DNA from: Parapedobacter luteus | Lineage (GTDB): Bacteria; Bacteroidota; Bacteroidia; Sphingobacteriales; Sphingobacteriaceae | Direction of reading: 5' to 3' | Length of the DNA: 64,000 nt | Assembly (NCBI RefSeq): GCF_900168055.1 | Contig: NZ_FUYS01000002.1 | Location: forward strand, 62,888 to 126,887 | Shown: positions 4,562 through 21,418 of the stretch, piece by piece | Layout: the number at the start of each line of letters is the position of its first letter | How positions within the stretch are numbered: position 1 is the stretch's first letter | Notes under the pieces: generated by a model | Databases searched by the model: none | The model's input: only the letters and a program-made list of their open reading frames with translations | Told to the model about the DNA's origin: nothing | Translations under genes and position numbers: made by a program

Positions 4562-4608
4562 CACGGATAATGCCTGCATTTGCGTGAAAGGTATTATCCG
4601 TGTTTTTT
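4562..4608 (+). terminator. Intrinsic terminator after the Tat-Gfo/Idh gene
   Basis: CACGGATAAT (4562-4571) pairs perfectly with ATTATCCGTG (4593-4602) and is followed by six T residues. It ends the isomerase-oxidoreductase operon. Confidence 0.85.
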
Positions 4609-4609
4609 G

Positions 4610-4636
4610 TTTGATGGCATTTTTTTGCTATCTTCA
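4610..4636 (+). promoter_or_regulatory. Candidate Bacteroidota promoter for the outer-membrane barrel pair
   Basis: TTTG at 4610-4613 and TATCTTCA at 4629-4636 are separated by 15 bp, close to the -33 TTTG / -7 TAnnTTTG pattern. The ATG at 4642 lies right after it, so the leader would be nearly absent. Confidence 0.4.
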
Positions 4637-4641
4637 CCTCC

Positions 4642-5436
4642 ATGATTGGAAGGTGTCTCATACTCCTCCTAATCTCCTATGAAAGCCTCGCCCAAACCTA
4701 CGTCGGCCCAAACTACCAAGCCATGGGTTTTACGGGCACCGCCCTCCAGGGGATTTACAGTTTGACGGCTAATCCGGCCGGTCTGGTGGGAGTGGAACGC
4801 CTCACAGCCAGCGTGAGCTACCAGCATCATTTTTTTACGGCGGACATCACCACGCAAGCGGCGTTATTGGCTATACCTACCCGTTTGGGCGCGTTCGGCC
4901 TCGCTGCGAATCGTTATGGACTAAAGGAGGCATATGACGCTACGAAGGTGAGCTTTTCTTTTGCCAAACAGTTTGGGACGCAATTTTCCATTGGGTTATC
5001 CACCAATTACCACCAGCTCTTTATACCCAATTACCTCAGTACATTTTCCCTGTCGGTAGACGTAGGCGGACAATACCATTGCGGCCAGGGGACAATCATT
5101 GGGCTGCATTTCAGTAACCCCAATAACGCCCGGTATGGGCAGGATGTCTATGGCACTATCCCCGCTTTCATACGGCTGGGTGCCAGCCACCCATTGGCCG
5201 GGGTACTGGTTTCTGTGGATGCTGTATACCCCCTGGAAGGTACGCTGGGAGGGAGTTTCGGTGTCGAATACCACATCGGTGACATTGTATGCTTACGTGG
5301 CGGATTATCAACCAATCCGTTGCAACAGCATGCAGGCTTTGGCGTGGATTGGCAGCAGTTTACGCTTGATGCGGCAGCCACGTTCCACCCTCGTTTAGGT
5401 ACATCACCCCAGATAGGCTTGAGTTATGTGTTTTAG
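4642..5436 (+). CDS. Outer membrane beta-barrel protein, PorV/PorQ-like
   Basis: The 264-residue protein has a short signal peptide ending at SLAQ. It continues with YVGPNYQAMGFTGTALQGIYSLTANPAG, the start typical of PorV/PorQ/UPF0164-type barrels whose first strand enters an Asn-Pro-Ala turn. Alternating hydrophobic strands run to a terminal ...QIGLSYVF ending in Phe, as outer-membrane barrels do. Its last 11 bp overlap the next gene, so the two are likely translated together. PorV-type proteins act in type IX secretion or as small outer-membrane shuttles; this one is short and I cannot assign a function. Confidence 0.7.
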   Translation: MIGRCLILLLISYESLAQTYVGPNYQAMGFTGTALQGIYSLTANPAGLVGVERLTASVSYQHHFFTADITTQAALLAIPTRLGAFGLAANRYGLKEAYDATKVSFSFAKQFGTQFSIGLSTNYHQLFIPNYLSTFSLSVDVGGQYHCGQGTIIGLHFSNPNNARYGQDVYGTIPAFIRLGASHPLAGVLVSVDAVYPLEGTLGGSFGVEYHIGDIVCLRGGLSTNPLQQHAGFGVDWQQFTLDAAATFHPRLGTSPQIGLSYVF

Positions 5437-7474
5437 CCGGTATATCCTGTTTGTGTTTGCATTATTGGCCGCTCGCGGCCTCAATGCCCAGTCCGGAACG
5501 GATTTGCTTATCGAACGGCTGACAGAACTTATCGCTGAGGAATTGGCCGAAGATTTTGATTTTTCGGAACTGGCTGAGCGGCTTGAATTTTACGAACGGC
5601 ATCCCATTGACCTCAACCATACCGATGGCAGGGAATTACGGGAGCTTCAATTCGTCCCGCAATTATTTATCGATAATGTGTTGGAACACCGTGAACGTTC
5701 AGGAAAATTTATCGCCACATTGGAGCTACAGGCCATTGAGGGACTGGATATTGACGTGCTTCGGATGCTGTTGCCCTATGTCACGGTAGATGTTTCCCGC
5801 TCCCTATCCGGGGTAAACGCGCGTCGGCTATTGAATGAAGGAACCCATGATTTGATGGTCAGGTATGGGCGTACGGTGCAGCAACGGCAGGGATATCGGA
5901 TTACGGATACCACCCGGTCGCGCTACCTCGGCAGCCCCAATCAACTATTCGCGCGCTACCGGTATCATTTTGGACCTGATTTGCAGCTTGCGCTCAATAT
6001 GAAGAAAGACGCGGGTGAAGGGTTTTTCAGCGGGGCGCAACGGTACGGTTTTGATTTTTACTCCGGTAGCATTTATGTGCGCAATCAAGGCCGGCTGAAA
6101 GATGCCGTCATAGGGGATTATGCATTGCAATTTGGGCAGGGGTTAGCGATGTGGAATGGCTTAGGGTTTGGCAAGGGCGCTATGGTACAAGGTATGATCA
6201 AACAGGCCACCGGTTTGCGCCCCTATACTTCGTCCAATGAGGTGCTTTTTTTGCGGGGCGGTGCCGCCACAGTTGCGTTTGGGCGCTTATTGATTACGCC
6301 TTTTTTCTCCCAGCGCAGTCTGGACGGCTCCAGGACTTACACCGCGGACGGTGAACCCGCGGTAAGTGCTATCGGTCAAACCGGGCTTCATCGCACCCCT
6401 ACGGAAGTGGCCAACCGCGGCGCGGTATCGCAACGGGTGTATGGTATGAATATGCAGTATGAATACCGGCGCTTTCGGCTGGGGGCGATGGCCTATCGCA
6501 CCCATGTTGACAAGCCGATTCAACCGCAGGACGTGCTGCGCAACCAATATGCGTTTCGTGGGCGAAGCCTTTCGAACACCAGCGTCTATTATAATTACTC
6601 GTGGCGGGGGGTATATCTGTTTGGCGAGGCAGCCCATAGCTTGGGGAGCGGCTTCGCATTCGTTAATGGGCTCATCGCCTCGCTGCATCCCCATTTGTCA
6701 TTGGCGTTGCATTATCGCAATTACCAACGCGATTACCATTCGTTCTTTAATCAAGGTGTTGCTGAAGGAAGCAGCGCAACCAATGAACAGGGGTTTTATT
6801 CAGGGTTGGTGTATCATCCGAGCCGGGCGGTTGAATGGGTGTTGTACGCCGACTTTTTTCGTTTTCCCTGGTTGCGGTATCGGGTAGACGCGCCGTCCCA
6901 GGGGGTCGATGTACTCTCCCAGCTCACCTACACATGGTATAAAAAAGCGAACATAGCAGTTCGCTACCGTTATCGGCAACGAGCGGAAAACGCTTCGTTG
7001 GAGCTGCCCCACAATGCTATTGTAGACGTGCTGCGGCAGCAAGTGCGCATAGGTGGTCAATATAAACTAAACGATTCCTGGACGACGCGTGCCCGCGTGG
7101 AGCTGGCGCATTACGCGAAGGAAGGAGAAGCTTCGGAGTTGGGCTGGATGGTTTACCACGATCTCATTTTTAAGCCGATGAGTGGCAGGTTGAGCGGCAA
7201 CGCACGCATTGCCCTGTTTGGCACTCCCGGTTATAATTCGCGCATTTATGCGTTTGAAAATGACGTCTTGTATGCCTATTCGTTTCCACTTTACCACAAC
7301 AACGGCTTGCGGACCTATGTCAACCTCCGATATCGCTTCGGACGGAAAACCGACGTATGGCTGCGGTATGCCACATTCATCTATCGCGGCATTGAAGAAA
7401 TAGGCAGCGGACTGGACCTGATCGAAGGCAACCAGCGTTCGGACGTGCGTATACAGGTGCGGTGGCAATTTTAA
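5426..7474 (+). CDS. Helix-hairpin-helix protein with C-terminal outer-membrane beta-barrel
   Basis: The 682-residue protein has a signal peptide (ends near GLNAQ). Residues about 50-120 resemble the ComEA-type tandem helix-hairpin-helix (HPIDLNHTDGRELREL, then LQAIEGLDIDVLRML). About 550 residues of aromatic-rich beta strands follow, ending in VRIQVRWQF with a terminal Phe, typical of an outer-membrane barrel. The ATG overlaps the preceding barrel gene by 11 bp. HhH domains bind DNA non-specifically in ComEA and pack as protein-interaction units in type II secretion. Which role applies here is unknown. The architecture recurs in Bacteroidota to my knowledge but is uncharacterised. Confidence 0.75.
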   Translation: MCFSRYILFVFALLAARGLNAQSGTDLLIERLTELIAEELAEDFDFSELAERLEFYERHPIDLNHTDGRELRELQFVPQLFIDNVLEHRERSGKFIATLELQAIEGLDIDVLRMLLPYVTVDVSRSLSGVNARRLLNEGTHDLMVRYGRTVQQRQGYRITDTTRSRYLGSPNQLFARYRYHFGPDLQLALNMKKDAGEGFFSGAQRYGFDFYSGSIYVRNQGRLKDAVIGDYALQFGQGLAMWNGLGFGKGAMVQGMIKQATGLRPYTSSNEVLFLRGGAATVAFGRLLITPFFSQRSLDGSRTYTADGEPAVSAIGQTGLHRTPTEVANRGAVSQRVYGMNMQYEYRRFRLGAMAYRTHVDKPIQPQDVLRNQYAFRGRSLSNTSVYYNYSWRGVYLFGEAAHSLGSGFAFVNGLIASLHPHLSLALHYRNYQRDYHSFFNQGVAEGSSATNEQGFYSGLVYHPSRAVEWVLYADFFRFPWLRYRVDAPSQGVDVLSQLTYTWYKKANIAVRYRYRQRAENASLELPHNAIVDVLRQQVRIGGQYKLNDSWTTRARVELAHYAKEGEASELGWMVYHDLIFKPMSGRLSGNARIALFGTPGYNSRIYAFENDVLYAYSFPLYHNNGLRTYVNLRYRFGRKTDVWLRYATFIYRGIEEIGSGLDLIEGNQRSDVRIQVRWQF

Positions 7475-7478
7475 TTCA

Positions 7479-7509
7479 TTTGGAAATATGGTTATTTTAG
7501 TTAAGTTTG
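7479..7509 (+). promoter_or_regulatory. Canonical Bacteroidota promoter before the ECF sigma factor
   Basis: TTTG (7479-7482) and TAAGTTTG (7502-7509) are separated by 19 bp, matching the primary-sigma -33/-7 consensus of Bacteroidota. It would transcribe the sigma factor gene with a leader of about 55 nt. Confidence 0.7.
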
Positions 7510-7571
7510 CAATAAGCATTCAATAAGCTTTGTTGTATTGGATATACTGATACACTAACCAATTTCCCAAA

Positions 7572-8165
7572 ATGGCAATAAGGTATCTTCCGGAACCCCA
7601 TCTTTGTAATCGTCTGTCAGCCGGAGATGAACAGGCCTTTCGCGAAGTGTTTGATCGCTTTCACCGCAAAGTTTTTCAATTTGCTTTTAATTTCTTGAAA
7701 GACAATGCGCAAAGCGAGGAGATTGTACAAGACACCTTTCTCAGTTTGTGGCTTCATCGGACAACCTTAAATCCTGACCAGCCAATAGCTCCTTTTTTGT
7801 TTACCATTGCACGGCGCACATTGGTAGACGCCTGGCGGAAAGCTGCCGCCTCTGAACGGTTCAGGGACCAGGTGCGGTTGTTTATGGATTTTTCGAATAA
7901 TGATACCGAGGAAGCAGTGTTTAAAAATGAATTGGAACAGATTGCTCAAGATGCATTAAGTAAATTAAGTGATCAACAACAAGAAGTGTTTACCCTCAGC
8001 CGCTACGAAGGATTATCTTACGAAGAAATTGCTGAGCGGATGCATATTTCAAAAAATACAGTTAAATACCACCTTGTCAATGCATTGAAGATATTGCGGG
8101 CGCATTTTGGTGAGCATGATGTGCTCTATTGTTATTTTATTCTCTTCCTTTGGAACGGCAATTAG
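7572..8165 (+). CDS. ECF RNA polymerase sigma factor
   Basis: The 197-residue protein has sigma-70 region 2 (FNFLKDNAQSEEIVQDTFL, about residues 38-60) and region 4 with a recognition helix (LSYEEIAERMHISKNTVKYHL, about residues 150-172). In SusCD systems such sigma factors are held by a membrane FecR anti-sigma and released when the TonB receptor binds substrate. Normally fecR follows directly. Here the intact fecR lies 3 kb downstream, and only a fecR-like N-terminal stub is found at 8291. The likely targets are the SusC/SusD genes. Confidence 0.95.
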   Translation: MAIRYLPEPHLCNRLSAGDEQAFREVFDRFHRKVFQFAFNFLKDNAQSEEIVQDTFLSLWLHRTTLNPDQPIAPFLFTIARRTLVDAWRKAAASERFRDQVRLFMDFSNNDTEEAVFKNELEQIAQDALSKLSDQQQEVFTLSRYEGLSYEEIAERMHISKNTVKYHLVNALKILRAHFGEHDVLYCYFILFLWNGN

Positions 8166-8290
8166 TTGCCCAACCTGATTTTTTCTAAAAAAACACTTTA
8201 CCGACTACCCACTTTCTTTTTTCATACGTATTACTAAACAAAGCCGCCATGGGAAACGTTCCTTAACGGTTATAAACCTTGAAAAGTAAT

Positions 8291-8365
8291 ATGGAAAGAA
8301 GTAGGCTGCGGCAGTTACTGGTTCGTTGTGAGCTCATAATAAACCACTTACTAAATTATGATTAA
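8291..8365 (+). pseudogene. fecR N-terminal relic (24-codon stub)
   Basis: An ATG 125 bp after the sigma factor opens a frame reading MERSRLRQLLVRCELI and stopping after 24 codons. Ten of its first 11 residues match the intact FecR at 11158 (MERYRLRQLLV); the DNA of these 11 codons matches at about 24 of 33 positions, with differences mainly at third positions. After residue 11 the similarity ends. The stub lies where fecR normally follows an ECF sigma gene. Its last eight bases overlap the MFS start codon. I interpret it as the truncated end of an original or paralogous fecR left when the MFS-oxidoreductase pair was inserted. A short regulatory peptide is the alternative. Confidence 0.6.
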
Positions 8366-9932
8366 AAAAACTAAAAGTTCAATTGGTGTTTTCGAACGCA
8401 AGCCGGATATGCGATTGTTTTACGCGTGTGTCATTTCCTTAGTCGCCACATCGTTTGGCTTTGTGTTGCGAGCCTTCGTACTCAACGATTGGGGGAAGGA
8501 GTTCCAATTAACTCAAACTCAACTTGGAGAGATTTCTGGAGTCGGTCTATGGCCTTTCGCAATCAGTATTGTGCTGTTCAGCCTGATTGTCGATAGGTTG
8601 GGTTATAAAACGTCCATGGTCTTCGCTTTTTTATTCCATGTGGCTTCCGCAGTGGTCACCATCTTCGCGACAGGCTATTGGATGTTATATATTGGTACGT
8701 TTATGATGGCGATCGGAAATGGTATCGTAGAGGCTGTTGTAAATCCGGTGGTGGCCACGATGTTTCCACAGCAAAAGACGAAATGGCTTGCGATATTGCA
8801 TGCCGGGTGGCCGGGCGGATTAGTATTGGGCGGATTGATGGCATTAGCTTGGGGCCCCGAAACTGCTTGGGGATTTAAAATTTCACTTATATTAATTCCC
8901 ACGCTGTTGTATGGTGGTATGATGGTTAGCCGCAAATTTGCAGCCAATGAACGGGTTCAAGCCGGTGTATCTTATTTAGAAATGTTGAGGGAACTAGGAG
9001 GAATCGGCGCGTTGTTAATCACGGCGTTGATAGTCTTTCAATTGGGACAGGTATTTGGCTGGAGTCCTTGGGTGAGTCCGGCGGTAACGGTGCTGATTTC
9101 CGTAGGTTTTGGGGTGTATGTAAAAAGCTGGGGGCGGTCGCTGTTCATCGTGCTCCTGTTGGTGATGGTGCCGTTAGCGATTACGGAGTTGGGTACGGAC
9201 AGCTGGATAAGCAGTTTGATGGAGCCGGAAATGGAAAGGCTGGGGCTTCAGGGAGGCTGGGTGCTGGTCTATACTTCTGCCATTATGTTGGTCATGAGAC
9301 TTTTTGCTGGGTCCCTTATCCACCGAATGTCACCTTTGGGCATGCTAGCGTTGAGCTCATGTGTTGCAGCGATTGGCATGTATTATTTGTCTCATTCTAT
9401 CGGGGTATCCATCTTGATAGCAGCGACGATCTATGCATTTGGAAAATCCTATCTGTGGCCGCTGATGTTGGGGGTTGTTTCTGAACAATTCCCAAAAGGA
9501 GGGGCTCTTACGTTGAACGTTATCGCGGGATTGGGGATGATTAGTGCAGGCGTGCTAGGAGCTGGTGTATTGGGCTTTTTGCAGGATAAGCGTGCCGATG
9601 GAAACATCGTCCTGCACGACGCCGAGCATCATACATCGCTGCATAGTACTTATCTGACAGAAAAGAAGACCAGTTTGTTCGGCGAGTACCAGGCATTGGA
9701 TTTTGAAAAACTTGAAAAGGCCCCACAAGAGGACAAGGATGCCATCGTGGCCATGCAGGAGAGCGCAAAGAAACTGGCGCTAAGGGATATCGTAGTCTTT
9801 CCCGTTGTCATGCTGGCTGCCTACTTGTTACTGATATTGTATTTCAAGCAAAGGGGCGGGTACAAAATAAAAATGTTGGATGCTTCCATTCAGACGAAAA
9901 ATGGAAGCCGTAAAATCGAACAAGACCAATAA
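8358..9932 (+). CDS. MFS transporter
   Basis: This 524-residue membrane protein has about twelve hydrophobic segments in two halves. After the second segment it has the MFS loop signature (DRLGYKTSM), and in the second half a related segment (HRMSPLG). A soluble stretch of about 60 charged residues (roughly 415-475, QDKRADGN... to ...ESAKKLA) lies before the final helix, which is longer than usual. It sits 14 bp before a Gfo/Idh oxidoreductase gene, so together they probably import and oxidise or convert a sugar or polyol. Its start codon lies inside the fecR relic. Substrate unknown. Confidence 0.9.
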   Translation: MIKKTKSSIGVFERKPDMRLFYACVISLVATSFGFVLRAFVLNDWGKEFQLTQTQLGEISGVGLWPFAISIVLFSLIVDRLGYKTSMVFAFLFHVASAVVTIFATGYWMLYIGTFMMAIGNGIVEAVVNPVVATMFPQQKTKWLAILHAGWPGGLVLGGLMALAWGPETAWGFKISLILIPTLLYGGMMVSRKFAANERVQAGVSYLEMLRELGGIGALLITALIVFQLGQVFGWSPWVSPAVTVLISVGFGVYVKSWGRSLFIVLLLVMVPLAITELGTDSWISSLMEPEMERLGLQGGWVLVYTSAIMLVMRLFAGSLIHRMSPLGMLALSSCVAAIGMYYLSHSIGVSILIAATIYAFGKSYLWPLMLGVVSEQFPKGGALTLNVIAGLGMISAGVLGAGVLGFLQDKRADGNIVLHDAEHHTSLHSTYLTEKKTSLFGEYQALDFEKLEKAPQEDKDAIVAMQESAKKLALRDIVVFPVVMLAAYLLLILYFKQRGGYKIKMLDASIQTKNGSRKIEQDQ

Positions 9933-9946
9933 TTACCGTATACAAT

Positions 9947-11080
9947 ATGAACAATAAACAAATCAATGTGGCCATTGTCGGTTTGGGTTTTGGGGCGGAG
10001 TTCATTCCGATCTACCAGCAGCATCCAGCGGCAAACATTTATGCCATCTGTCAGCGGAACGAAATAAAATTGAACGAAATAGGCGATGCATTCGGAATCG
10101 AAAAGCAGTATCGGGACTATGGTGAACTCTTAAAAGACGATCAGGTAGATGCGGTGCACATCAACACGCCGATACCCAACCACGCCGAGCAATCGTTGAA
10201 GGCGTTGCGGGCAGGTAAGCACGTAGCCTGTACCGTACCGATGGCCACGACAGTGGAGGAATGCCGGCAATTAGTTGAGGCAGTGGAAGAAACGGGTCTG
10301 ACCTATATGATGATGGAGACCGTGGTGTATGCGCGTGAGTTCCTTTTTATGAAAGAATTGTATGAGCGCGGGGAGCTGGGAAAGCTTCAGTTCTTGAAAG
10401 CCAGCCACCAACAGGATATGGACGGCTGGCCGGACTACTGGCCGGGATTGCCGCCCATGCATTATGCGACACATTGTGTGGGGCCAGTACTGGGACTGGC
10501 ACGGAGCGAAGCGGAGTATGTGTCTTGCTTCGGCTCGGGGAGCATCCGGGAAGAACTCCAGCGCCACTATAACTCGCCGTTCGCGGTGGAAACCGCTCAT
10601 ATCAAGTTCCGGGATTCGGATTTAAGTGCCCACGTGTATCGGTCCCTGTTTGACACCGCGCGTCAATATAGAGAAAGCGTTGAAGTGTATGGTTCTAAGA
10701 AATCGGTCGAATGGCCGTTGATGGAGGGTGGGCTCTTGGTGGTACATACCGCCAAGAAACCCGAGCCCGAAATCCCGGGGGAAGTGCGCTGCCCCGACTA
10801 TGCACACCTGTTGCCAGAACCGATCCGGCATTTTACGTTGGGTGGGGTGTATGATGAATCGGACAACCAGCATCTTTCCTTTACCCAAGGTTCCGGACAC
10901 GGTGGGTCTCATCCGCATTTGGTACATGAATTTGTCAGTGCGGTCGCAGCGGGCCGCCAACCGTTTCCGAATGTGCGGCAGTCAGCCAATATCACCTGTG
11001 TGGGCATTCTGGCACACGAATCTGCACTGAACGGTGGGGAAGTCATTCGTTTGCCCGACTTTACCTTAGAAAAGCGATGA
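9947..11080 (+). CDS. Gfo/Idh/MocA family protein with variant TVP motif
   Basis: The 377-residue protein has no signal peptide, so it is cytosolic, in contrast to the exported Gfo/Idh proteins of the region. It has the Rossmann start VAIVGLGFGAEF. At residues 95-98, where the family has CEKP, it reads CTVP (GKHVACTVPMATTVEEC), so the conserved Glu-Lys pair is replaced. The second domain keeps a paired-histidine segment (MHYATHCVG). Loss of the EKP lysine argues for an altered reaction such as a non-redox step, or for a different proton relay. It is coupled to the MFS transporter 14 bp upstream. Confidence 0.88.
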   Translation: MNNKQINVAIVGLGFGAEFIPIYQQHPAANIYAICQRNEIKLNEIGDAFGIEKQYRDYGELLKDDQVDAVHINTPIPNHAEQSLKALRAGKHVACTVPMATTVEECRQLVEAVEETGLTYMMMETVVYAREFLFMKELYERGELGKLQFLKASHQQDMDGWPDYWPGLPPMHYATHCVGPVLGLARSEAEYVSCFGSGSIREELQRHYNSPFAVETAHIKFRDSDLSAHVYRSLFDTARQYRESVEVYGSKKSVEWPLMEGGLLVVHTAKKPEPEIPGEVRCPDYAHLLPEPIRHFTLGGVYDESDNQHLSFTQGSGHGGSHPHLVHEFVSAVAAGRQPFPNVRQSANITCVGILAHESALNGGEVIRLPDFTLEKR

Positions 11081-11157
11081 CAAGCACACGGTCTGATGAC
11101 TCCCGGGTTGTCCGTGCTAGCGAATGGGTTGGATACAGCTGTTGATTAACTTGCAAA

Positions 11158-12357
11158 ATGGAACGATATAGACTGCGACAACTGTTGGTTGATTACGCCA
11201 ACGGAACGATTACTGCGACCGACATGGAGACACTGTTGGATCATGTGGCTAGGTATCGAAAAGGCGATGATTTGGATGACCTGTTGCAGGAGTTATTAGA
11301 AAGTACCCCCGCCGACATGGATGTCCCGACAGATTCGGAAATTTTATATCAACGGATTGTGCAGCATCCGCGGTTTGGCCACCGCCGTCGCCGGTGGCGT
11401 AATTACTGGTGGTATAGTGCTGCGGCCGTTTTGGTGATCGCCGGCGGTTGGTTTTTTGCGGATATCGGCGGGAGTGGCGATAAGAACTCAACCCCACTTA
11501 TTGCGGAAATCACGCGAACGGTCACTTCGGCACCGACGGAAAGACCGATATTGCAATTGTCAGATGGAAAGATCATCGATTTGGGCCAAGCGGTCAACGG
11601 CGTACTTGCCGTGGAGGATGGTACTCTGGTCAAATTTGACGGTCTTACGCTCAGTTACGAGGGAAAACCGGCGAATGAGGATGGGCAACTGCGTAAACAC
11701 CGCATCATCACTCCGAAGGGGCACCAATACCATGTCTTGTTGCAGGATGGTTCGGAGATATGGGTAAATGCAGCGACTGAATTGGTATATCCGGTACGTT
11801 TTGACAGACATAAACGGGAAGTAAGCGTCATCGGGGAGGCCTATTTCGAAGTGGAAAAAGCAATGGATTGGCCGTTCGTTGTAAAGACAGGTATGCAGGA
11901 AATCGAGGTTTTGGGTACTCATTTTAACGTCAGTGCCTATGAAGATGACGAACGATCAAGCACGACGTTGTTGGAAGGGCAGGTGCGTGTATCGGCTGTC
12001 GAAAATCAAGACGCATCGGCACCTACGAATCGCCGATCCACGGTACTTAAGCCGGGTCAGCAGGCTGTTACAAAAAAAGGAGGAAGCGGTATCTCGGTTA
12101 GCCCGGTCGATACCGAAGAAGTTGTCGCTTGGAGAGACAACCTGTTTGTCTTCAACAACGAGGAGATAAGCGAAGTGATGAAGGCAGTGAGCAGATGGTA
12201 TGACGTTGAAGTGGAATACCTCGATGGCATGGCGGGTAAACGTATCGGGGGTAGCATTCCTCGTTTTGACCAAGTTGAGCAAATGATGGACGCGCTTCAG
12301 GCGACAGGCCTGTTGCATTACAAAATGAAAGGAGGTGTGATCGTGGTCATGAAATAG
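11158..12357 (+). CDS. FecR family anti-sigma factor / sigma regulator
   Basis: The 399-residue protein shows the usual layout. It has a cytosolic sigma-binding N-terminus (residues 1-80), one membrane helix (about 84-102, WWYSAAAVLVIAGGWFF), a periplasmic FecR domain (about 170-275, with HQYHVLLQDGSEIWVNAATEL and AYFEVEK) and a C-terminal DUF4974 (about 325-399). It should hold the ECF sigma factor at 7572 and release it on a signal from the STN domain of the SusC receptor that follows 133 bp later. Its separation from the sigma gene by an MFS/oxidoreductase pair is unusual and matches the fecR stub at 8291. Confidence 0.95.
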   Translation: MERYRLRQLLVDYANGTITATDMETLLDHVARYRKGDDLDDLLQELLESTPADMDVPTDSEILYQRIVQHPRFGHRRRRWRNYWWYSAAAVLVIAGGWFFADIGGSGDKNSTPLIAEITRTVTSAPTERPILQLSDGKIIDLGQAVNGVLAVEDGTLVKFDGLTLSYEGKPANEDGQLRKHRIITPKGHQYHVLLQDGSEIWVNAATELVYPVRFDRHKREVSVIGEAYFEVEKAMDWPFVVKTGMQEIEVLGTHFNVSAYEDDERSSTTLLEGQVRVSAVENQDASAPTNRRSTVLKPGQQAVTKKGGSGISVSPVDTEEVVAWRDNLFVFNNEEISEVMKAVSRWYDVEVEYLDGMAGKRIGGSIPRFDQVEQMMDALQATGLLHYKMKGGVIVVMK

Positions 12358-12382
12358 CCCGGTGTCGCGCCCGAAAAGAAAA

Positions 12383-12410
12383 AGCCGGAAGCGAGGCAAC
12401 GCTTCCGGCT
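12383..12410. terminator. Strong hairpin between fecR and susC
   Basis: AGCCGGAAGCG (12383-12393) and CGCTTCCGGCT (12400-12410) form a perfect 11-bp stem with a 6-nt loop. There is no T-run on the plus strand, so it may act as an attenuator or mRNA-stabilising hairpin rather than a full terminator; on the minus strand a T-rich stretch follows it. Confidence 0.6.
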
Positions 12411-12490
12411 AAAGATTTCCTCACCCTTGGGGCTGAGTCGGGCCTATCAAAAAGTAAACGTGATTAACCAACAGTCTTAATAAACCCTTT

Positions 12491-15400
12491 ATGATGCAAA
12501 TGTATGAAAAGCTTGCCACAATTTGTGGCGATAGGCTAACCAATTTACTTAATTCGTCGATCGTTATGCGTTTGTCTTTGATGTGGCTGGTTGTCAGTAT
12601 GCACATGAGTGTCTTCGCAATTGGGCAGCATGTGACACTGAACCAACGAAATGCCTCTTTGGCGACGGTGTTGAAAGAAATCAAACGACAAACGGGATAC
12701 CATTTCCTGTATGACGCCGAAGCGGTGCTGGAAGCACCTCCCATTTCCTTAACACTGAAAAATGTGCCGGTAGAAGAAGCCCTTAAACAGTGTTTGGAAG
12801 GATTGTCATTGAAGTTCGTGATTAATCAAAAGAACATCATCATATCCAAGCAATCCTCGCCCGTCGCCAAGCCGGAGATAACCACACAGCGCACGGTTAC
12901 CGGGCGTGTCACGGATACAAACGGGACTCCCCTCGAAGGGGTGACCGTGTCCGTAATGGGAACGGCAATCGCCACGACAACAGACAACGAGGGCACCTAT
13001 CGATTGGTACTGCCGTCGGAAGTTGGGACCATAGTGTTCACAATTGTCGGCTATGCCCGATATGAGGCCGATTCGTCTTCGGGTGATGTAATAAATGTGT
13101 CGTTGAGGGAGGAGATCAGTGACTTGGAAGAGGTTGTTGTGGTGGGGTATGGAACCCAGAATAAAAGTACACTAACCGGTGCGGTTTCGGCCGTCAGTGA
13201 AGAACAGCTTGGGCTTGCTCCCGCCGGCGACGCCGCATCCAGGTTGCAAGGAAGGGTGTCCGGCGTTACCGTTACCAATAACAATTCGCCGGGTGGCAGT
13301 GCAACAGTTCGGGTGCGCGGAATCGGATCCATCAATAACAACAACCCGTTATATGTTGTAGACGGCGTGCCGATAAGTGGCGGACTGAATGCCATAAATC
13401 CAAACGATATCGAAACGATGACCGTATTGAAAGATGCTTCGTCATCGGCTATATACGGGTCGAGGGCTGCAAATGGCGTCATTGTGATCACGACGAAAAG
13501 TGGCAAGGGAGGCAAGCTAAAGTTGGACTTCAGCGGAAGATATGGGCTGCAGAATCCGATGAATAAGCTCGATTTGCTGAATTCGCAGGAATTGGGTGAG
13601 AAGAAGTGGCAGGAAAAGATCAACGACGGACTGACACCGGAGAGTGCGGGTTGGGGAGACTTGCAGTACGGTTACGGGCCCGACCCCGTGATACCTGACT
13701 ACACGTTTCCCCAAGCCGGAAAGATCGGAGAGGTGGATGAGAATTTGTATAGCTATCCGTCTCCCTACTACGGAATAACAAAAGCCAATAAAGCGGGGAC
13801 GGACTGGCTTGATGAGATATTTAATACGGCAAGCATTCAAGAGTATAACTTCTCTGTGCGGGGAGGCGGTGAAAATAGTAGTTATTTTATTTCCAGTGGT
13901 TTGTTAGACCAACGGGGTATCGTTCGGGAAACCGGATTCAGGCGTTATAGTGTTCGATCCAATTCAAGTTTTAAGATTACTAATTGGTTGGAAATCGGTC
14001 AGAATCTGGGTGTATCTTATTCTGATCAAAATGGACTGAGAGACGGCGATGTAACGGCGGCAATTACTAGCGCAATGAATGCCCACCCTATTTTGCCGGT
14101 TTATGACATCAAGGGCAATTTTGCGGGAACCAAATCCCCGGGAACCGGGAACGGGCATAATCCGGTTGCCCAGTTGATAAGGGGGAAAAACAACTATTCG
14201 CGAGAAACTCGTATTTTGGGAAATGTCTATGCACAAGCGAATTTTACGAAGGACTTATCTTTTAGGTCAACTTTCGGGACCGATCTCAACAACAACAAAG
14301 CCAAGGTCTATACGTTGAGAAACCCGGAATTTACGCAGACCAACCTGAATAACGGCATCCTGGAAACGCATCTCAGCGGGTTTCAGTTTAATTGGTCTAA
14401 CACATTGACTTTTAGTAAAATTTTGGGTGATAATCATCATTTTGATTTATTGATCGGTACGGAAGCCATCAAGCACACCACTGAATTGTTCAACGCTGGA
14501 AGATCTTCATACGCATTTGAAGATGAGGATTTCATGATCCTGGATGCAGGTGAAGAGAATTTTATCAACGCCGGAAATTTCGATAGTTGGTCCCTTTTTT
14601 CCTACTTCAGCAGGCTAAATTACAACTATAATGGTAAATACCTACTGGAGGCCGTGGTACGCCGGGACGGGTCATCCAGATTTACCAAGGCAAACCGATG
14701 GGGTACCTTCCCGGCGCTGTCGGCGGGCTGGCGCGCGCTTGAGGACCTTGGGGAAGTGAGTTTTATAGACGATCTGAAACTGCGCGTGGGTTGGGGGCAG
14801 AATGGCAACGACAACGTCGGCAACTACAATGCCTATAGTACGTTCCGCTCGCACGGATTTGAATCGTACTACAACATTTCGGGTTCCAGCAGGAACCGGT
14901 CGGAAGCCGGAATCGCTCCCTTTAGGCTTGGAAATCTTCAAGGGAGATGGGAAACAAATACGACCACAAATGCCGGAGTTGACTTGATGATGTTCAACCG
15001 GAAGTTGGAAGTCAATTTCGATGTGTTTACCCGAAGGACCACCGATATGCTCTATCCCGATACCCGCCCTGCTACATGGGGTGCACTGGAGTTGGCCTCC
15101 ATCAATGTCGGCGAAATGAAGAATTCAGGTTTTGACCTGATGGTTGCTTACCGGCATGATATCGGAGAAACCTGGCACTTCAATGCGAGCGCAAACCTAT
15201 CGCATTATAAAAACAAAGCGATCAACCTGAACGGCAACCCGAATGAAATCCGGTATGGAAGTCAGTTGCAAAACGACTATTACACCATCACGCAGGCAGG
15301 CATACCGATCTCATCTCATTATGGTTACGTGGTCGAAGGTTTTTTCAACACGCAGGAAGAGATAGACGCACACCCGAAATTCAATCCGAACCTTGACGGG

Positions 15401-16009
15401 ATCGACACGTACAGCAAACTTGGTGTGTTTAAGTATAAAGATGTGAACAACGACGGTGTGGTCAACCAAGACGACCGAACCATCATCGGAAGCCCCCACC
15501 CGGATTTTACGTATGGCATAAACCTGTACGCGCAATACAAAGGGTTGGTGGATCTGACGATCTTCTTTCAGGGAAGCCAAGGAAACGACATCGCAAATTT
15601 TGCCAAGCGCACAATCCTGTTTAATCGGAATGACGGCAACTACCTGAAGTCTCGCTTGTATGAGTCCTGGACGCCAGAGCGGTATGCAAATGGAGAAAGA
15701 ATTACCCTTCCGATCACTACCAATAACGATGCAATCTTGCAGCGGCCCTCAACGTTCTTCGTCGAGGACGGTTCCTATTTTAGGCTTAAGGATGTGCAGC
15801 TTGGTTTTAATGTTCCAGATGGGGCACTATCAAAACTGAGAGCTTCCTCACTGCGTATTTTCTTGCAAGCGACAAACTTGTTTACCGTCACGGAATATTC
15901 TGGTTTGGATCCCGAACTAAGTTCCGGTAATGATTCAAACCTTGGTGTCGATTCAACCGTTTATCCGACACCCCGTATGTTCACTTTTGGAATTAACATG
16001 AACTTTTAA
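12491..16009 (+). CDS. susC: SusC/RagA family TonB-dependent receptor with N-terminal STN domain
   Basis: This 1172-residue outer-membrane protein has a signal segment and then an STN (secretin/TonB N-terminal) domain at about residues 45-118 (LNQRNASLATVLKEIKRQTG). A carboxypeptidase-regulatory-like domain follows (about 137-207), then the SusC box EEVVVVGYGTQNKSTLTGAV, a plug domain with YVVDGVPI, and a 22-strand-type barrel ending in FGINMNF. The STN domain marks it as a signalling receptor that talks to FecR. It imports an oligosaccharide or other large ligand together with SusD, which starts 11 bp downstream. Substrate is not evident, but the adjacent PQQ dehydrogenase and DUF1080 genes suggest a sugar, polyol or glycoside. 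Confidence 0.97.
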   Translation: MMQMYEKLATICGDRLTNLLNSSIVMRLSLMWLVVSMHMSVFAIGQHVTLNQRNASLATVLKEIKRQTGYHFLYDAEAVLEAPPISLTLKNVPVEEALKQCLEGLSLKFVINQKNIIISKQSSPVAKPEITTQRTVTGRVTDTNGTPLEGVTVSVMGTAIATTTDNEGTYRLVLPSEVGTIVFTIVGYARYEADSSSGDVINVSLREEISDLEEVVVVGYGTQNKSTLTGAVSAVSEEQLGLAPAGDAASRLQGRVSGVTVTNNNSPGGSATVRVRGIGSINNNNPLYVVDGVPISGGLNAINPNDIETMTVLKDASSSAIYGSRAANGVIVITTKSGKGGKLKLDFSGRYGLQNPMNKLDLLNSQELGEKKWQEKINDGLTPESAGWGDLQYGYGPDPVIPDYTFPQAGKIGEVDENLYSYPSPYYGITKANKAGTDWLDEIFNTASIQEYNFSVRGGGENSSYFISSGLLDQRGIVRETGFRRYSVRSNSSFKITNWLEIGQNLGVSYSDQNGLRDGDVTAAITSAMNAHPILPVYDIKGNFAGTKSPGTGNGHNPVAQLIRGKNNYSRETRILGNVYAQANFTKDLSFRSTFGTDLNNNKAKVYTLRNPEFTQTNLNNGILETHLSGFQFNWSNTLTFSKILGDNHHFDLLIGTEAIKHTTELFNAGRSSYAFEDEDFMILDAGEENFINAGNFDSWSLFSYFSRLNYNYNGKYLLEAVVRRDGSSRFTKANRWGTFPALSAGWRALEDLGEVSFIDDLKLRVGWGQNGNDNVGNYNAYSTFRSHGFESYYNISGSSRNRSEAGIAPFRLGNLQGRWETNTTTNAGVDLMMFNRKLEVNFDVFTRRTTDMLYPDTRPATWGALELASINVGEMKNSGFDLMVAYRHDIGETWHFNASANLSHYKNKAINLNGNPNEIRYGSQLQNDYYTITQAGIPISSHYGYVVEGFFNTQEEIDAHPKFNPNLDGIDTYSKLGVFKYKDVNNDGVVNQDDRTIIGSPHPDFTYGINLYAQYKGLVDLTIFFQGSQGNDIANFAKRTILFNRNDGNYLKSRLYESWTPERYANGERITLPITTNNDAILQRPSTFFVEDGSYFRLKDVQLGFNVPDGALSKLRASSLRIFLQATNLFTVTEYSGLDPELSSGNDSNLGVDSTVYPTPRMFTFGINMNF

Positions 16010-16020
16010 CGAAAGAAAAA

Positions 16021-17724
16021 ATGAAAAAGTGGTTTAGATATAGCTATGCGCTGTGTATATCGATATTTTTTTCTTGTTCCGATAGTTTTTTTGAGATCAA
16101 ACCCAAGGGGCAAGCCAGTATCGATGACTTATCATCAAAGACAGGTGTGGAAGCCCTGTTGCTGGGGGCCTATGCGGCCGTCGATGGAGTGAACGGCAAA
16201 CTTGGCGATGGCTGGGCTTCTGCAGAATCCAATTGGGTCTGGGGGGAGGTAGCGTCTGACAATGCTTATAAAGGAAGTGTGTCGGGCGATCAGAACCCCA
16301 TCAATGCGATCGAAGGCTTTTTTGTTGAGGCCACAAACGTTTATGTAACCGATCATTGGACGACTCTTTTCGACGGCGTGCAGCGTGCGAATGTCATCCT
16401 TCAGGTGCTTCCCCGGGTGCAAGACATCGCGGAGACGGAAAGGCGCCAAATTGAAGCGCAAGCCCGGTTCCTGCGGGCGCATTTCTACGTTGAACTGGTG
16501 CGCGTACACGGGAACGTGCCATACATCGATGAAAATACGGAAAATCCGGGGGAAGTCCCCAATGATCGTCCGATATGGAATGAAATAGAAGCCGATTTGC
16601 AGTTTGCCAGCGACCACCTGCCCCACCGTTGGACGGACAAGGGACGGGCAACCAAGTGGGCGGCCATTACCTATAAGGCGTACATCCATATGTTGCAAAA
16701 CGAACACGCGGAAGCAAGGCCGCTGCTGTTGGATGTGTATGAGAACGGTGGCTTCAGTTTAATGCCCAGTTACGAGCAAAATTACCGAACGGCATACGTA
16801 AATAATGAAGAGTCCATTTTTGAGGTGCAGTATGCCGTGAATGACGGATTCCAGCTTGGACAGTACACCGGCAGCCCGAATGCAGGGCCGGGAAATAGCA
16901 TTATCGGCATGACGTTTATGGGGGGAAGCGGCTTTCTCCAACCTTCTCATAACCTCGTCAGCGCGTTTCGAGTGGGAGACAATGGCCTGCCGCTATTGGA
17001 TGACACCTATACTCCAGACGATATACTGCCGTACTCGACTACCGGGGCAAGCGTGCTTTACACGGAGCCGGTAGACCCAAGGCTGGATCATACGGTGGGC
17101 AGACCCGGGGTGCCTTTTCTGGACTGGGGAGTACAGTTGGGACATGCCTGGATCCGCGACCCGACAAATGGCGGGCCATACATCACCAAGAAACAGATGT
17201 TTCTGTTGGCTGAGCGGGGGTCAAATTCCGGTGCAACCGGTCGAACGTTTTCGAATGCAAACAACTACCGGAAATTCAAGTTGAGCCACGTCATCCTTTG
17301 GCTGGCTGAGTGCGAGGCCGAGATCGGGTCGTTGGCCCGCGCAACAGAATTGACCAACCTGCTGAGGAACCGGGCAAAGCAATCCAACGTCGTCTCGTTT
17401 GACGATGGGACCCCTGCGGCCAATTACAAAGTCGAGCCTTATCCGGTTGCTTTTCCGACGAAAGAATATGCAAGGAAAGCAATCAGGCACGAACACCGCA
17501 TGGAGTTGGCAATGGAGGGCTACCGTTTCTATGACTTGGTTCGTTGGGGAGTCGCAGGCCCGGTGTTGAACAATTTTATGCAGGTAGAATCGACCCGCAT
17601 GAGTTATTATCAGGGAAGGCACTTCACGGTCGGACAAAATGAAATCTGGCCGGTCCCGCAACGAGAGATTGATCTGTCGGTGAAAGATGGCGTGCCGGTG
17701 CTTGTCCAGAATCCAGGTTATTGA
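16021..17724 (+). CDS. susD: SusD/RagB family nutrient-binding outer membrane lipoprotein
   Basis: The 567-residue protein has a lipoprotein signal with lipobox ending at ISIFFSC. It continues with the SusD pattern: DDLSSKTGVEALLLGAYA, TPR-like helices (QAQARFLRAHFYVELVRVHGNVPYI is IEAQARFLRAHFYVEL in the sequence) and the C-terminal RHEHRMELAMEGYRFYDLVRWG motif, ending EIWPVPQREIDLS. It forms the lid of the SusC transporter on the cell surface. It is 11 bp after susC and certainly in the same operon. Confidence 0.97.
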   Translation: MKKWFRYSYALCISIFFSCSDSFFEIKPKGQASIDDLSSKTGVEALLLGAYAAVDGVNGKLGDGWASAESNWVWGEVASDNAYKGSVSGDQNPINAIEGFFVEATNVYVTDHWTTLFDGVQRANVILQVLPRVQDIAETERRQIEAQARFLRAHFYVELVRVHGNVPYIDENTENPGEVPNDRPIWNEIEADLQFASDHLPHRWTDKGRATKWAAITYKAYIHMLQNEHAEARPLLLDVYENGGFSLMPSYEQNYRTAYVNNEESIFEVQYAVNDGFQLGQYTGSPNAGPGNSIIGMTFMGGSGFLQPSHNLVSAFRVGDNGLPLLDDTYTPDDILPYSTTGASVLYTEPVDPRLDHTVGRPGVPFLDWGVQLGHAWIRDPTNGGPYITKKQMFLLAERGSNSGATGRTFSNANNYRKFKLSHVILWLAECEAEIGSLARATELTNLLRNRAKQSNVVSFDDGTPAANYKVEPYPVAFPTKEYARKAIRHEHRMELAMEGYRFYDLVRWGVAGPVLNNFMQVESTRMSYYQGRHFTVGQNEIWPVPQREIDLSVKDGVPVLVQNPGY

Positions 17725-17802
17725 TGATGTAACAAGGCATTTCTGCACCGGAGTCTACAGGTGTGGAAATGCTGTTCTTTGAATACACAAACACGTATAT
17801 AA

Positions 17803-20034
17803 ATGTTGTTTTTTCGTAATAGATGGCTGCCGGCAGCGGTGGCGGTTGTCATGCTTTGGGCATGTGACACAGGACAGGACGGATACCGGACATGGCAGGT
17901 GTACGGAGGAAATGAAGAAAATATAAAATATGTTGCCTTGCGCCAAATCGACACCAGTAATGTCGCACGCTTGGAAGTTGCTTGGGAGTATGCCTCCGGT
18001 GAGGCTTCCGAAACCAATACGACCGACATGAAAACCAATCCGATTATCGTGGATGGCGTGTTGTACGGACTAAATCCCCAACTTAAGCTGTTCGCCTTGG
18101 ATGCAGCAACGGGGGAGGAATTATGGACATTCGATCCCGGTGAAATACCGGTTCAGGGCGCCAATATCGGAAGGGGGCCATTTGCGGCTTCCACCAAAAT
18201 ATCGCGCGGATTGGCATTCTATGACGGAGGAAAAGATGATAGAAGAATACTCTATTCACCGGGTGGCGGACACACCTTGCATTGCGTGGATGCCAATACC
18301 GGAAAGCTCATCCCCTCTTTCGGAACAAATGGCATGATCGACCTTCATGATGATCTTGATGTTGAGAATGCGCATGACTTGCACATATCCAATACCAGTC
18401 CGGGAATCATTTTCGAAGACCTGATCATCGTGGGCTCCAGGTTGTCCGAAGCGGCGCAATCCCTGCCGGGGCATATCCGGGCGTATGACGTACATACAGG
18501 GGAGCGGAGGTGGATATTTCACACGATCCCGCATCCCGGGGAGAAAGGGTACGAAACCTGGGATAACCCGAAGGCGTATAAGTATGCGGGCGGCGCGAAC
18601 GTCTGGGGCGGGTTCAGCCTGGATAAGGAACGGGGGATTGTCTTTGCGGGGACGGGTTCTGCGACGCCCGATTTTTACGGCGCTTACCGTGGGGGAGACA
18701 ATCTTTTTGCGAACTGTGTACTGGCATTGGATGCCCGCACCGGGAAGCTGGTTTGGCATTATCAGACCGTACATCACGATCTGTGGGATTGGGATCATGC
18801 TTCGCATCCGATTTTAGCGCATGTAAAGAAAGATGGAAATGAGATCGACGTCGTCGTACAGGTCACGAAACAGGGCTTTATTTTCGTGTTAGACAGGGAT
18901 ACAGGCGAACCGATTTACCCTGTTGACGAAGTGCCGGTTCCTCAATCGGACCTTGTGAATGAGAAATCGTCTCCGACCCAGCCTGTACCTACCTTTTACA
19001 AACCGTTTGTACGGCAGGTGCTGACCGAAGCCGATCTGTTCAAAGCAGGGTTGCCCGATACGTCCTATCAACAGATCTTGCAACGGTTCCGTTCGCTCAA
19101 GACCGATAACATGTTCAATCCGCCATCCCTGCAGGGCACACTCCAGAACCCGGGGTGGAATGGCGGGGCAGAGTGGGGCGGGCCGGCGTACGATCCTGAG
19201 ACGGGGGTGATGTACCTGAATGCAAACGAGTCGCCTTGGATCATGCAGATGGTCAAGGTGGAAGATGAACCCAACCCGCAAGGCTTTGACTTTGGTTCCG
19301 TCTATCAAACAAACAAGGAAGTGGGGATGCTGTTGTATCGGCAACAGTGCAGCAGCTGCCATGGGGCGGATTTGGGTGGGGGGGAAACCAATCCCTCCCT
19401 GGCGACCTACCCCTCGCTGAAAAATCTTCCTTTCGATGAAGAATCGTTTAAAAGTTTGATTGCGACAGGCCGGAACACGATGCCTGCATTTAGCCACCTG
19501 AGCAACGAGCAGCGCACGGCCATTGCCTCCTATGTCCTGAACTTGGAGGACAGGCAGAAAGAGCGTTATGTGCGGTCACAAGCGGAAAAGGTGCCGGAAT
19601 ACCTGACCAGTCCCTATCGCGTCACGGGAATGAAATTCCTTACACCTGAGGGATATCCGGCAGTAGCTCCTCCTTGGGGACACCTGTCTGCGATCAACCT
19701 GAGCACGGGCGAGACCGAGTGGAAAGTTCCTTTAGGCGATTACCCCGAACTAAAGGCTAAGGGTATAGCAGCCGGCAGCGAAAACTTCGGCGGGCCTGTC
19801 GTTACCGCCGGCGGGCTGGTGTTCATCGCCGCAACTAGGGATGAGAAAATCCGTGCGTTCAACAAGCAGACCGGAGCATTGCTTTGGGAAGCGGATTTGC
19901 CGGCGGCGGGCATTGCGACGCCAGCCGTGTATGCCATCAACAACAAACAGTACGTGGTGATCGCTTGCGGAGGAGGAGGTAAACAGCGGACAAAGTCAGG
20001 AGATAAGTACGTTGCATTTGCCCTTCCGGATTAA
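17803..20034 (+). CDS. PQQ-dependent dehydrogenase (quinoprotein) with cytochrome c domain
   Basis: The 743-residue protein begins with a lipoprotein signal whose lipobox ends VVMLWAC, then DTGQDGY. It has an eight-bladed quinoprotein propeller with repeated tryptophan docking segments (GEELWTFDPG, GKLVWHYQTVHHDLWDWD). A cytochrome c domain is inserted near the C-terminus: CSSCH at about residues 515-519 and a probable axial Met in RNTMPAF at about 560. The layout resembles quinoprotein glucose/alcohol dehydrogenases. It should oxidise a sugar or polyol at the periplasmic face and pass electrons through its haem. No pqq synthesis genes lie in the window, so PQQ must come from elsewhere in the genome or the medium. 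It lies 78 bp after susD. Confidence 0.9.
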   Translation: MLFFRNRWLPAAVAVVMLWACDTGQDGYRTWQVYGGNEENIKYVALRQIDTSNVARLEVAWEYASGEASETNTTDMKTNPIIVDGVLYGLNPQLKLFALDAATGEELWTFDPGEIPVQGANIGRGPFAASTKISRGLAFYDGGKDDRRILYSPGGGHTLHCVDANTGKLIPSFGTNGMIDLHDDLDVENAHDLHISNTSPGIIFEDLIIVGSRLSEAAQSLPGHIRAYDVHTGERRWIFHTIPHPGEKGYETWDNPKAYKYAGGANVWGGFSLDKERGIVFAGTGSATPDFYGAYRGGDNLFANCVLALDARTGKLVWHYQTVHHDLWDWDHASHPILAHVKKDGNEIDVVVQVTKQGFIFVLDRDTGEPIYPVDEVPVPQSDLVNEKSSPTQPVPTFYKPFVRQVLTEADLFKAGLPDTSYQQILQRFRSLKTDNMFNPPSLQGTLQNPGWNGGAEWGGPAYDPETGVMYLNANESPWIMQMVKVEDEPNPQGFDFGSVYQTNKEVGMLLYRQQCSSCHGADLGGGETNPSLATYPSLKNLPFDEESFKSLIATGRNTMPAFSHLSNEQRTAIASYVLNLEDRQKERYVRSQAEKVPEYLTSPYRVTGMKFLTPEGYPAVAPPWGHLSAINLSTGETEWKVPLGDYPELKAKGIAAGSENFGGPVVTAGGLVFIAATRDEKIRAFNKQTGALLWEADLPAAGIATPAVYAINNKQYVVIACGGGGKQRTKSGDKYVAFALPD

Positions 20035-20065
20035 TCAGATGTATAACACAAATTATTGCAAGATC

Positions 20066-21418
20066 ATGAAAGCTAAAATTATCGGTAAATTATGGCATGT
20101 CAGCACAATTGTTGGCGTGCTGCTTTTGGCCTCGTTATCAAACGGTGTCGCGCAGTCCCCGGATGATGACTCTTGGGAGATACTCTTCAACGGTAAGGAC
20201 TTGTCTGGCTGGAGACAACTGAATGGCAAGCACCGTTGGGAGGTACGCGACGGCATGATCGTCGGCACGACGGTAGCAGACCAGCCCAACGGCTTTTTAT
20301 GCACCGAAGATGAGTATAGCGACTTCGTGCTGGAATTGGAAGTCTCTATCGATACGCTCATGAACAATTCAGGAGTCCAGTTCCGGAACCGGAGTTATCC
20401 GGCTTATCAAAACGGCCGCGTGCATGGCTATCAGATGGAAGTCGATCCCAAACCGCAGCAGTGGAGCGGCGCGATTTACGAGGAGGGAGGTGACAGACAT
20501 TGGTTATACAGCGGGTTCTTGTTGACGCAGGCGGCGAAAGATGCATTCAAGCTGGACAATGTCGATGGTTACCAGTGGAATAAATATCGGATTGAATGTG
20601 TCGGGGCGAGGATCAGGACTTGGATCAACGGCGTGCCTGCGGCACACTTGATCGATGACCGTTTCCCGAGGGGATTTATCGGCCTTCAACTGCACGCCAA
20701 CCAAGCGAACGATCCGGAAGGAGACTACCAGGTCAGGTTTCGGAATATCCGGATAAAGCGAGCTGACTTTACCCCGGCTCCATTGGATGATATTTACGTG
20801 GTAAACTACCTCCCCAACCAGCTTTCTGCGCAAGAGGAAAAAAACGGCGTCGTCTTGTTGTGGGATGGGCATTCCGCGGGTAAATGGCGGAAAGCGTCGG
20901 GCGAGACGTTGGACCAACGACAGGAAGGGAAACATGCGGCCGGGTGTTTGGCAGGCCAACAAGATACCTGTGTGTTTCGTTTCGATACGCCAATCACGAT
21001 GGACCTCCCTTACACGGCGTTTGAGTTGACCTTTGACTTTAAATACGATGAACACGGCGAGGGAGGGCTGATCTACTTGGCTGATTCCCAGTCGGTGGTT
21101 GAGGATGGGAGCAATGCGCTGCAATATCATATCAGGCACGATGGCGATGGAGCTTCGCTGGATACGACCCGTTCACTAGGCGCGTTGTACGGCCTGCTGC
21201 CGTCTACGAAGCACTGGTGGTTTACCAAAAAGCCCAACCACTGGAATCAAGCCGTCGTTCGAGTCTTTCCCGACAGAAGGGTGGAACACTGGCTGAATGG
21301 ATATTTAGTTTTGGAATATGATCTGGACAGCTTGAGCGATCAATTAACCGACGGTACAACCATTGCCTTGCGAAGCGGCGTAGCCTATCGCAGCCTTAAG
21401 GTGAGAAAATTAAATTAA
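20066..21418 (+). CDS. Secreted DUF1080 (3-keto-disaccharide hydrolase-like) protein, two tandem domains
   Basis: From the ATG at 20066, chosen because it gives a clean signal peptide (MKAKIIGKLWHVSTIVGVLL, cleaved near VAQ), the protein has 450 residues. Residues about 30-220 form one DUF1080 jelly-roll (LFNGKDLSGWRQ ... DGMIVG ... GVQFRNR). Residues about 245-450 form a second, degenerate copy (LLWDGHSAGKW ... GGLIYLAD). DUF1080 proteins hydrolyse 3-keto-disaccharides or act in related 3-keto-glycoside steps (family knowledge). It starts 31 bp after the PQQ dehydrogenase, so oxidation followed by cleavage in the periplasm is a reasonable guess. Confidence 0.85.
   Translation: MKAKIIGKLWHVSTIVGVLLLASLSNGVAQSPDDDSWEILFNGKDLSGWRQLNGKHRWEVRDGMIVGTTVADQPNGFLCTEDEYSDFVLELEVSIDTLMNNSGVQFRNRSYPAYQNGRVHGYQMEVDPKPQQWSGAIYEEGGDRHWLYSGFLLTQAAKDAFKLDNVDGYQWNKYRIECVGARIRTWINGVPAAHLIDDRFPRGFIGLQLHANQANDPEGDYQVRFRNIRIKRADFTPAPLDDIYVVNYLPNQLSAQEEKNGVVLLWDGHSAGKWRKASGETLDQRQEGKHAAGCLAGQQDTCVFRFDTPITMDLPYTAFELTFDFKYDEHGEGGLIYLADSQSVVEDGSNALQYHIRHDGDGASLDTTRSLGALYGLLPSTKHWWFTKKPNHWNQAVVRVFPDRRVEHWLNGYLVLEYDLDSLSDQLTDGTTIALRSGVAYRSLKVRKLN

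Follow-up and report, generated by a model that had tools for sequence, protein, structure and literature searches.

Among the described systems, one of the closest to the locus considered here is the ferric citrate system of Escherichia coli, FecI-FecR-FecA. In this organism, fecI and fecR stand in tandem, promoters are placed before fecI and fecA, and fecIR is not autoregulated (PMC9249621). Another close group is formed by the sigma-fecR-susC-susD loci of Bacteroidota. The present report concerns a locus of this kind in Parapedobacter luteus. It lies in a stretch of 64,000 nucleotides (contig NZ_FUYS01000002.1, positions 62,888 to 126,887), which is termed the window and in which all positions are counted. 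The genome of P. luteus itself is denoted G000 and a sister genome of the same genus G003; other relatives carry G-numbers, and contigs carry C-numbers.

The locus shares with the E. coli system an extracytoplasmic function (ECF) sigma factor, a FecR protein with the FecR and FecR_C domains, and a TonB-linked receptor with an STN domain, and it shares with the Bacteroidota loci both the gene order and the domains. A fecR gene directly behind the sigma gene is usual in FecI-FecR-receptor systems, though not required for function. In the window, however, the end of the sigma gene and the intact fecR are 2,992 bp apart. This interval, which sets the locus apart from the Bacteroidota loci, holds a relic of another fecR, a gene for a sugar-transporter-like member of the major facilitator superfamily (MFS) and a gene of the Gfo/Idh/MocA family. 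Unlike in E. coli fec, transporter genes thus stand between sigma and fecR, and a motif of the sigma type lies between the sigma gene and the relic. The best reading is truncation of the former fecR and capture of its promoter by a different downstream block, in place of a simple insertion. As judged from sequence, recombination has probably brought the genes MFS-Gfo-fecR-susC-susD, together with that of a pyrroloquinoline quinone (PQQ)-type dehydrogenase, behind the putative promoter of the sigma locus.

The fecR relic and its source

The original prediction held that a micro open reading frame (ORF) at 8291 repeats the first residues of the intact FecR, which lies 3 kb further on. The micro-ORF is real; it reads MERSRLRQLLV against MERYRLRQLLV of the intact protein (start at 11158), with 10 of 11 residues equal, and its stop spans the MFS start codon (8358), as had also been claimed. 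When the FecR 11-mer was compared with all 6,677 ATG, GTG and TTG positions in the six frames of the window, more than five positions were matched by the stub (10) and by fecR itself (11) only. The intact FecR as the source of the stub, on the other hand, did not hold at the DNA level, where the stub agrees with it at 20 of 29 nucleotides and with the fecR of G003 at 27 of 29. Of the genome's other FecR genes, 36 in number, the best reaches 6 of 11 residues of the stub 11-mer within its first 60.

The match to G003 extends well beyond the codons. Window positions 8187-8319 agree with G003 in 117 of 135 columns, which span the region directly before the intact fecR of that genome and the first 29 nucleotides of the gene, beginning MERSRLRQLLTDYS. 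Within this match, the promoter-like motif accounts for 29 of 32 columns, the leader for 49 of 58 (2 gaps) and the first codons for 27 of 29, both differing bases being synonymous by eye. When window 8190-8330 was searched against nine genus genomes, the top match was in G003 (E 1.4e-37, 88%) and ended at base 8319; next came G001, with 30 bases at E 0.07. Over the same 29 nucleotides, the intact window fecR and the G003 gene agree at 18. Further, no second CTACCC-N15-17-CGTA occurs ahead of the intact fecR in the window. Since the stub fits the G003 gene better than the intact copy, and the latter is not preceded by a copy of the promoter, the stub, the promoter-like motif and the leader are, on these alignments, the 5' end of a fecR of the G003 type which formerly stood behind this sigma gene and is otherwise gone. 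The proposal of a fecR relic thus stood, with upstream region, leader and first codons all homologous in DNA to the G003 gene.

The features of the locus are as follows; the order sigma, MFS, Gfo/Idh, FecR, SusC and SusD, as originally predicted, was borne out by Pfam and NCBIfam profiles.

7572-8165, + strand: ECF sigma factor gene, 197 amino acids (NCBIfam TIGR02985, 150.2 bits, cut-off 126.4), 91% identical to that of G003
8203-8234, + strand: putative promoter for this sigma factor, GACTACCC-N16-CGTATTAC, the sole exact match in the window
8235-8290, + strand: 5' leader of the former fecR
8291-8319, + strand: relic of the former G003-type fecR, comprising its first 29 nucleotides (ten codons)
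8291-8365, + strand: micro-ORF of 24 codons, MERSRLRQLLVRCELIINHLLNYD, running from the relic over the joint and overlapping the MFS start by 8 nucleotides
8320-8357, + strand: joint, behind the end of the G003 similarity at 8319; the MFS leader is a possible source of its later part
8358-9932, + strand: MFS transporter gene (PF07690), 84.6% and 81.5% identical to G002 and G007
9947-11080, + strand: Gfo/Idh/MocA family gene (PF01408), 86-87% identical to G002 and G007 and 88.6% to a second copy on C16 of the same genome
11158-12357, + strand: intact fecR (PF04773 and PF16344 above cut-off), 60% identical to FecR of G003 and by identity no orthologue of the stub's gene
12383-12410, + strand: hairpin between fecR and susC with an 11-pair stem; G003 and G001 have similar 9-pair hairpins in this position
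12491-16009, + strand: SusC-type receptor gene (TIGR04056) with an STN signalling domain (PF07660, 45.6 bits, cut-off 28.4)
16021-17724, + strand: susD (PF07980)
17803-20034, + strand: gene for a PQQ-type dehydrogenase with a cytochrome c domain (PF01011, PF13442)

The fecR homology of the stub covers 29 nucleotides; its residue 11 (V) equals that of the intact FecR and not that of the G003 gene (T). No Pfam match was obtained in 8279-8362, so the stub is without a complete FecR domain. The MFS gene starts 38 nucleotides behind the last relic base, and from about 8336 on a weak resemblance to the MFS leaders of G002 and G007 can be seen by eye. The 24-codon ORF is a product of the joint, whether accidental or selected.

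A chance likeness of such a short ORF to FecR can practically be dismissed, because the DNA match of 133 bases reaches outside the reading frame; the E-value in G003, the low counts among the other FecR genes and those at the other start codons of the window led to its rejection. That the stub was copied from the intact FecR was likewise rejected on the DNA counts given above. It is also very improbable that two pieces were misjoined at 8320 during assembly. The joint is known from one assembly, but it lies within a 755-kb contig, the motif, leader and relic are continuous with a syntenic sigma gene, and no orthologue of the MFS gene above 53% is found elsewhere in the same genome. As for the state of the relic, its two differences in 29 bases stand against 56% at the synonymous sites of the sigma gene, which points to either a recent fusion or a constrained relic. 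A selected leader ORF, coupling the translation of MFS to ribosome loading at the start of the old fecR, is a tentative explanation and seems rather doubtful. The 8-nucleotide overlap and the two synonymous changes speak for it, whereas a recent fusion would give the same low divergence and the ORF is present in one of nine genus genomes only. By a rough estimate, a stop this near to the next start is not rare by chance (about 1 in 5).

The putative promoter and the proposed regulation

A further site for the motif in the window, at 2575-2606 of the other strand, has 3 mismatches, with 0.21 such sites expected by chance. Across the nine genomes searched, the pattern GACTACCC-N16-CGTANTA has one exact copy each in G000, G003, G004 and G005, always at this locus, and none in the other five. 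In G004 and G005, the motif was seen both after the sigma gene and before fecR. The promoter regions set side by side were picked after the motif had been spotted by eye; a leader hairpin after the -10 element gave z-scores from -3.7 to +1.2 over nine leaders. A scan with Rfam at gathering scores over 4600-21000 returned no known RNA element.

We infer that the motif may act as a nearly private promoter of this sigma factor, and that the MFS gene was probably placed under a different switch by fusion to the 5' end of the former fecR. In such a scheme, a substrate would be sensed by SusC, whereupon FecR would free the sigma factor to act. RNA polymerase would then start just after 8234 and produce one message carrying the stub, MFS, Gfo, fecR, susC, susD and the PQQ enzyme. 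With one message from the sigma promoter, the inner-membrane transporter and the Gfo protein would be induced along with the SusCD pair of the outer membrane. The relic would serve as a 5' untranslated region and perhaps also as a short leader ORF with its stop over the MFS start, and translational coupling of MFS through the stub is possible.

Origin of the genes behind the joint

In line with the original proposal, the MFS and Gfo genes have another home operon, which was found in G002 and G007. There, MFS is followed by a xylose-isomerase-like TIM-barrel gene (PF01261), then by Gfo and finally by a large gene for a ThuA-DUF7133-HEAT protein; G018 has this large gene ahead of MFS. A divergent AraC-type gene precedes the operon in G002, on C16 of P. 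luteus and on C7 of G003, and none was seen in the 20 kb of G007 that were read. On C16, the isomerase, the second Gfo and the large ThuA gene are kept and MFS is gone. The operon of G003 likewise lacks MFS, the nearest MFS in that genome being 52% identical. Because the gaps left in P. luteus and G003 differ in length and sequence by eye, the two losses may be independent. An element upstream of MFS, CAGTCAGNATTTGTTAATTAANAGGTGTG, is conserved, with one exact copy each in G000 (C16), G002 and G007. It is absent from the window and from G003 within 3 mismatches, and its absence from the window indicates that the MFS gene there has exchanged its upstream region. On C16 (L261 8789-9137), the upstream element is kept along with an apparent MFS start codon region, present as a tiny ORF.

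Both window genes are intact, with rates of nonsynonymous change (dN) of 0.07-0.12 when compared with G002, G007 and the further Gfo copies, and with synonymous sites saturated. A recent duplication of the C16 operon as their source was considered and found unsupported: the Gfo DNA tree pairs the C16 copy with that on C7 of G003 (86/87, not starred). The window Gfo falls outside this pair, at a position that the tree leaves unresolved, the synonymous sites being saturated. An EKP motif is expected in Gfo/Idh proteins. At its place, CTVP is read in the window protein (9947-11080) and in those of C16, G003, G002, G007 and G018, and CTIP in a paralogue on C14. Judging from these residues, the catalytic lysine of this Gfo group may be missing.

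The history originally proposed, a mere insertion ahead of the sigma factor's own anti-sigma gene, was not supported, with the G003-type fecR gone and the downstream genes strongly diverged. The six syntenic genes up to and including sigma are 91.6, 86.3, 94.5, 82.6, 77.6 and 90.9% identical between the window and G003, and the identity past sigma falls to 60% for FecR, 37% for SusC and 24% for SusD. This drop argues that the former fecR was truncated and that another block now follows. FecR is also out of step with sigma: identities of sigma and FecR are 91 and 60% between the window and G003, against 82 and 71% between G004 and G005, and the corresponding branch sums are 0.11 and 0.81 against 0.22 and 0.45. 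Beyond SusD, none of the window ORFs of at least 110 codons was matched in the 50 kb of G003 examined (E up to 1e-10). By identity, fecR, susC and susD as they now stand have diverged too far from their G003 counterparts to count as plain orthologues. In 36 relatives and the genome itself, no donor for the fecR-susCD-PQQ block was found, the best SusD being 47% and the best PQQ enzyme 53% identical. A related sigma locus is the most likely source of the block, which may have arrived by replacement or through a deletion between adjacent modules.

Several observations weigh against promoter capture. The putative promoter is a sequence motif, and its case is one of position and conservation because the patterns are not enriched over reversed controls. 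With up to one mismatch, GACTACCC-N16-CGTANTA gives 10 hits in the nine genomes against 21 for the reversed control; six of the 10 carry one mismatch, among them a second copy present at the locus of G005. The looser CTACCC-N16-CGTA has 6 hits in the P. luteus genome against 19 for its reverse. At six further loci of the sigma clade, the strict motif was found in G110 alone, four others show looser variants by eye, and G033 shows none. The occurrence of the fusion in one of nine genus genomes leaves room for an assembly error. Moreover, the nearest FecRs to that of the window, among the matches listed (as holds for all closest or best hits in the FecR and sigma protein searches), belong to this sigma clade. 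The FecRs of the window and G003 are weakly sister (76/82), and the spacer hairpin is common to the window, G003 and G001; fast divergence of one lineage is for these reasons conceivable, and a wholly foreign origin of the block is disfavoured.

Two other histories draw on the same observations. The MFS and Gfo genes could have inserted near the beginning of one fecR, with duplication of its first codons, the intact FecR being the original, since diverged. The nearness of the window FecR to that of G003 (60%), their weak sister grouping and the common spacer hairpin would fit such an insertion. It is nevertheless quite improbable, as the stub agrees with G003 at 27 of 29 nucleotides and the intact fecR at 18, no such promoter or leader stands before the intact fecR, and the discordance of sigma with FecR and the low identities of SusC and SusD are left over. 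Alternatively, a deletion between tandem sigma-clade modules may have joined codon 10 of a first fecR to the MFS leader of a second module. Here, a single event is enough, and the FecR, spacer hairpin and SusC start all resemble this type of locus. On the other side, none of the 13 sigma-clade loci carries two clade fecR genes and no tandem arrangement was seen in the genomes read, so that this history is conceivable but on the unlikely side. Truncation of a G003-type fecR with promoter capture is kept as the preferred reading.

With regard to the spacer hairpin itself, the 9-pair versions of G003 and G001 show a compensating change from G-C to A-T by eye. When the window spacer was shuffled 300 times at the mononucleotide level, 11 pairs were never reached, and several of the 12 spacers compared have weak or unlike stems.

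Sigma-fecR intervals and comparison with known systems

The statement that sigma genes are usually followed directly by fecR was confirmed in P. luteus, where a sigma gene lies at most 301 bp upstream of 33 of the 37 FecR genes; such gaps, here and in the clade comparison below, are approximate, the first start codon of each ORF being taken as its start. The remaining four loci comprise the window and three without a sigma gene in the roughly 2 kb first read. For one of these three, a sigma gene was found 2.6 kb upstream, separated from fecR by two genes, and for two none within about 16 kb. The former, on C24 (L268 13898-18193), has a Gfo/Idh gene (14650-15825) and a xylose-isomerase-like TIM-barrel gene (15867-16922) between sigma and fecR, and its sigma locus is unrelated to that of the window.

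Within the sigma clade itself, the loci compared were the best 13 of 39 listed sigma matches. As anticipated, relatives such as G001, G026 and G110 have the order sigma-fecR-susC without MFS and Gfo. The fecR gene follows sigma by 70-143 bp in eight of the 13 (G001, G026, G005b, G110, G134, G066, G208 and G366), and four hold intervening DNA, amounting to 3.0 kb in the window, 8.0 kb in G003, 2.4 kb in G005 and 0.4 kb in G004; the thirteenth, G033, has no such fecR. Before its promoter, the G003 interval carries, on both strands, three AraC-type genes and those for a flavin oxidoreductase, an ABM-domain protein, an alcohol-dehydrogenase-like protein and two short-chain dehydrogenases. The interval of G005 holds one gene with a weak likeness, below cut-off, to glycoside hydrolase family 42, and that of G004 has three pieces of the same gene, 49, 50 and 73% identical. 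In G001, the orthologous sigma gene is followed, about 10.9 kb downstream, by a relative (67% identical) of the window's glycerate kinase gene (PF02595, 21773-22921).

These intervals hint at a recurrent cargo slot between sigma and fecR, which is weakened by the small sample and by G004 and G005 counting as one event. The fuller proposal, that the interval is a recurrent cargo slot of the genus, in which metabolic genes come time and again to lie behind a private sigma promoter and which here took up a transporter lost by its home operon and kept the stub as a working coupling leader, is doubtful to unlikely. The observations suggest that sigma-fecR intervals are sites where nutrient genes switch regulators, and they provide, for one pair of sigma and FecR, a promoter sequence that can be tested.

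No title or abstract opening among the matches listed in a literature search dealt with a fecR stub or with genes between sigma and fecR. The locus is an instructive rewiring and no categorically new kind of system. Compared with the home operon of G002 and G007, the window has orthologous MFS and Gfo genes (82-87% identical) and is without the isomerase, the ThuA protein and the upstream element, which persist on C16 without MFS. Promoter capture, or operon rewiring by recombination, generally entails the loss of the old upstream region and the gain of a new promoter and a truncated first gene. In the present case, by comparison, both the old and the new upstream regions are recognisable and the home operon, stripped of its MFS gene, is found in the same genome, which makes this an unusually well resolved operon rewiring in Bacteroidota.

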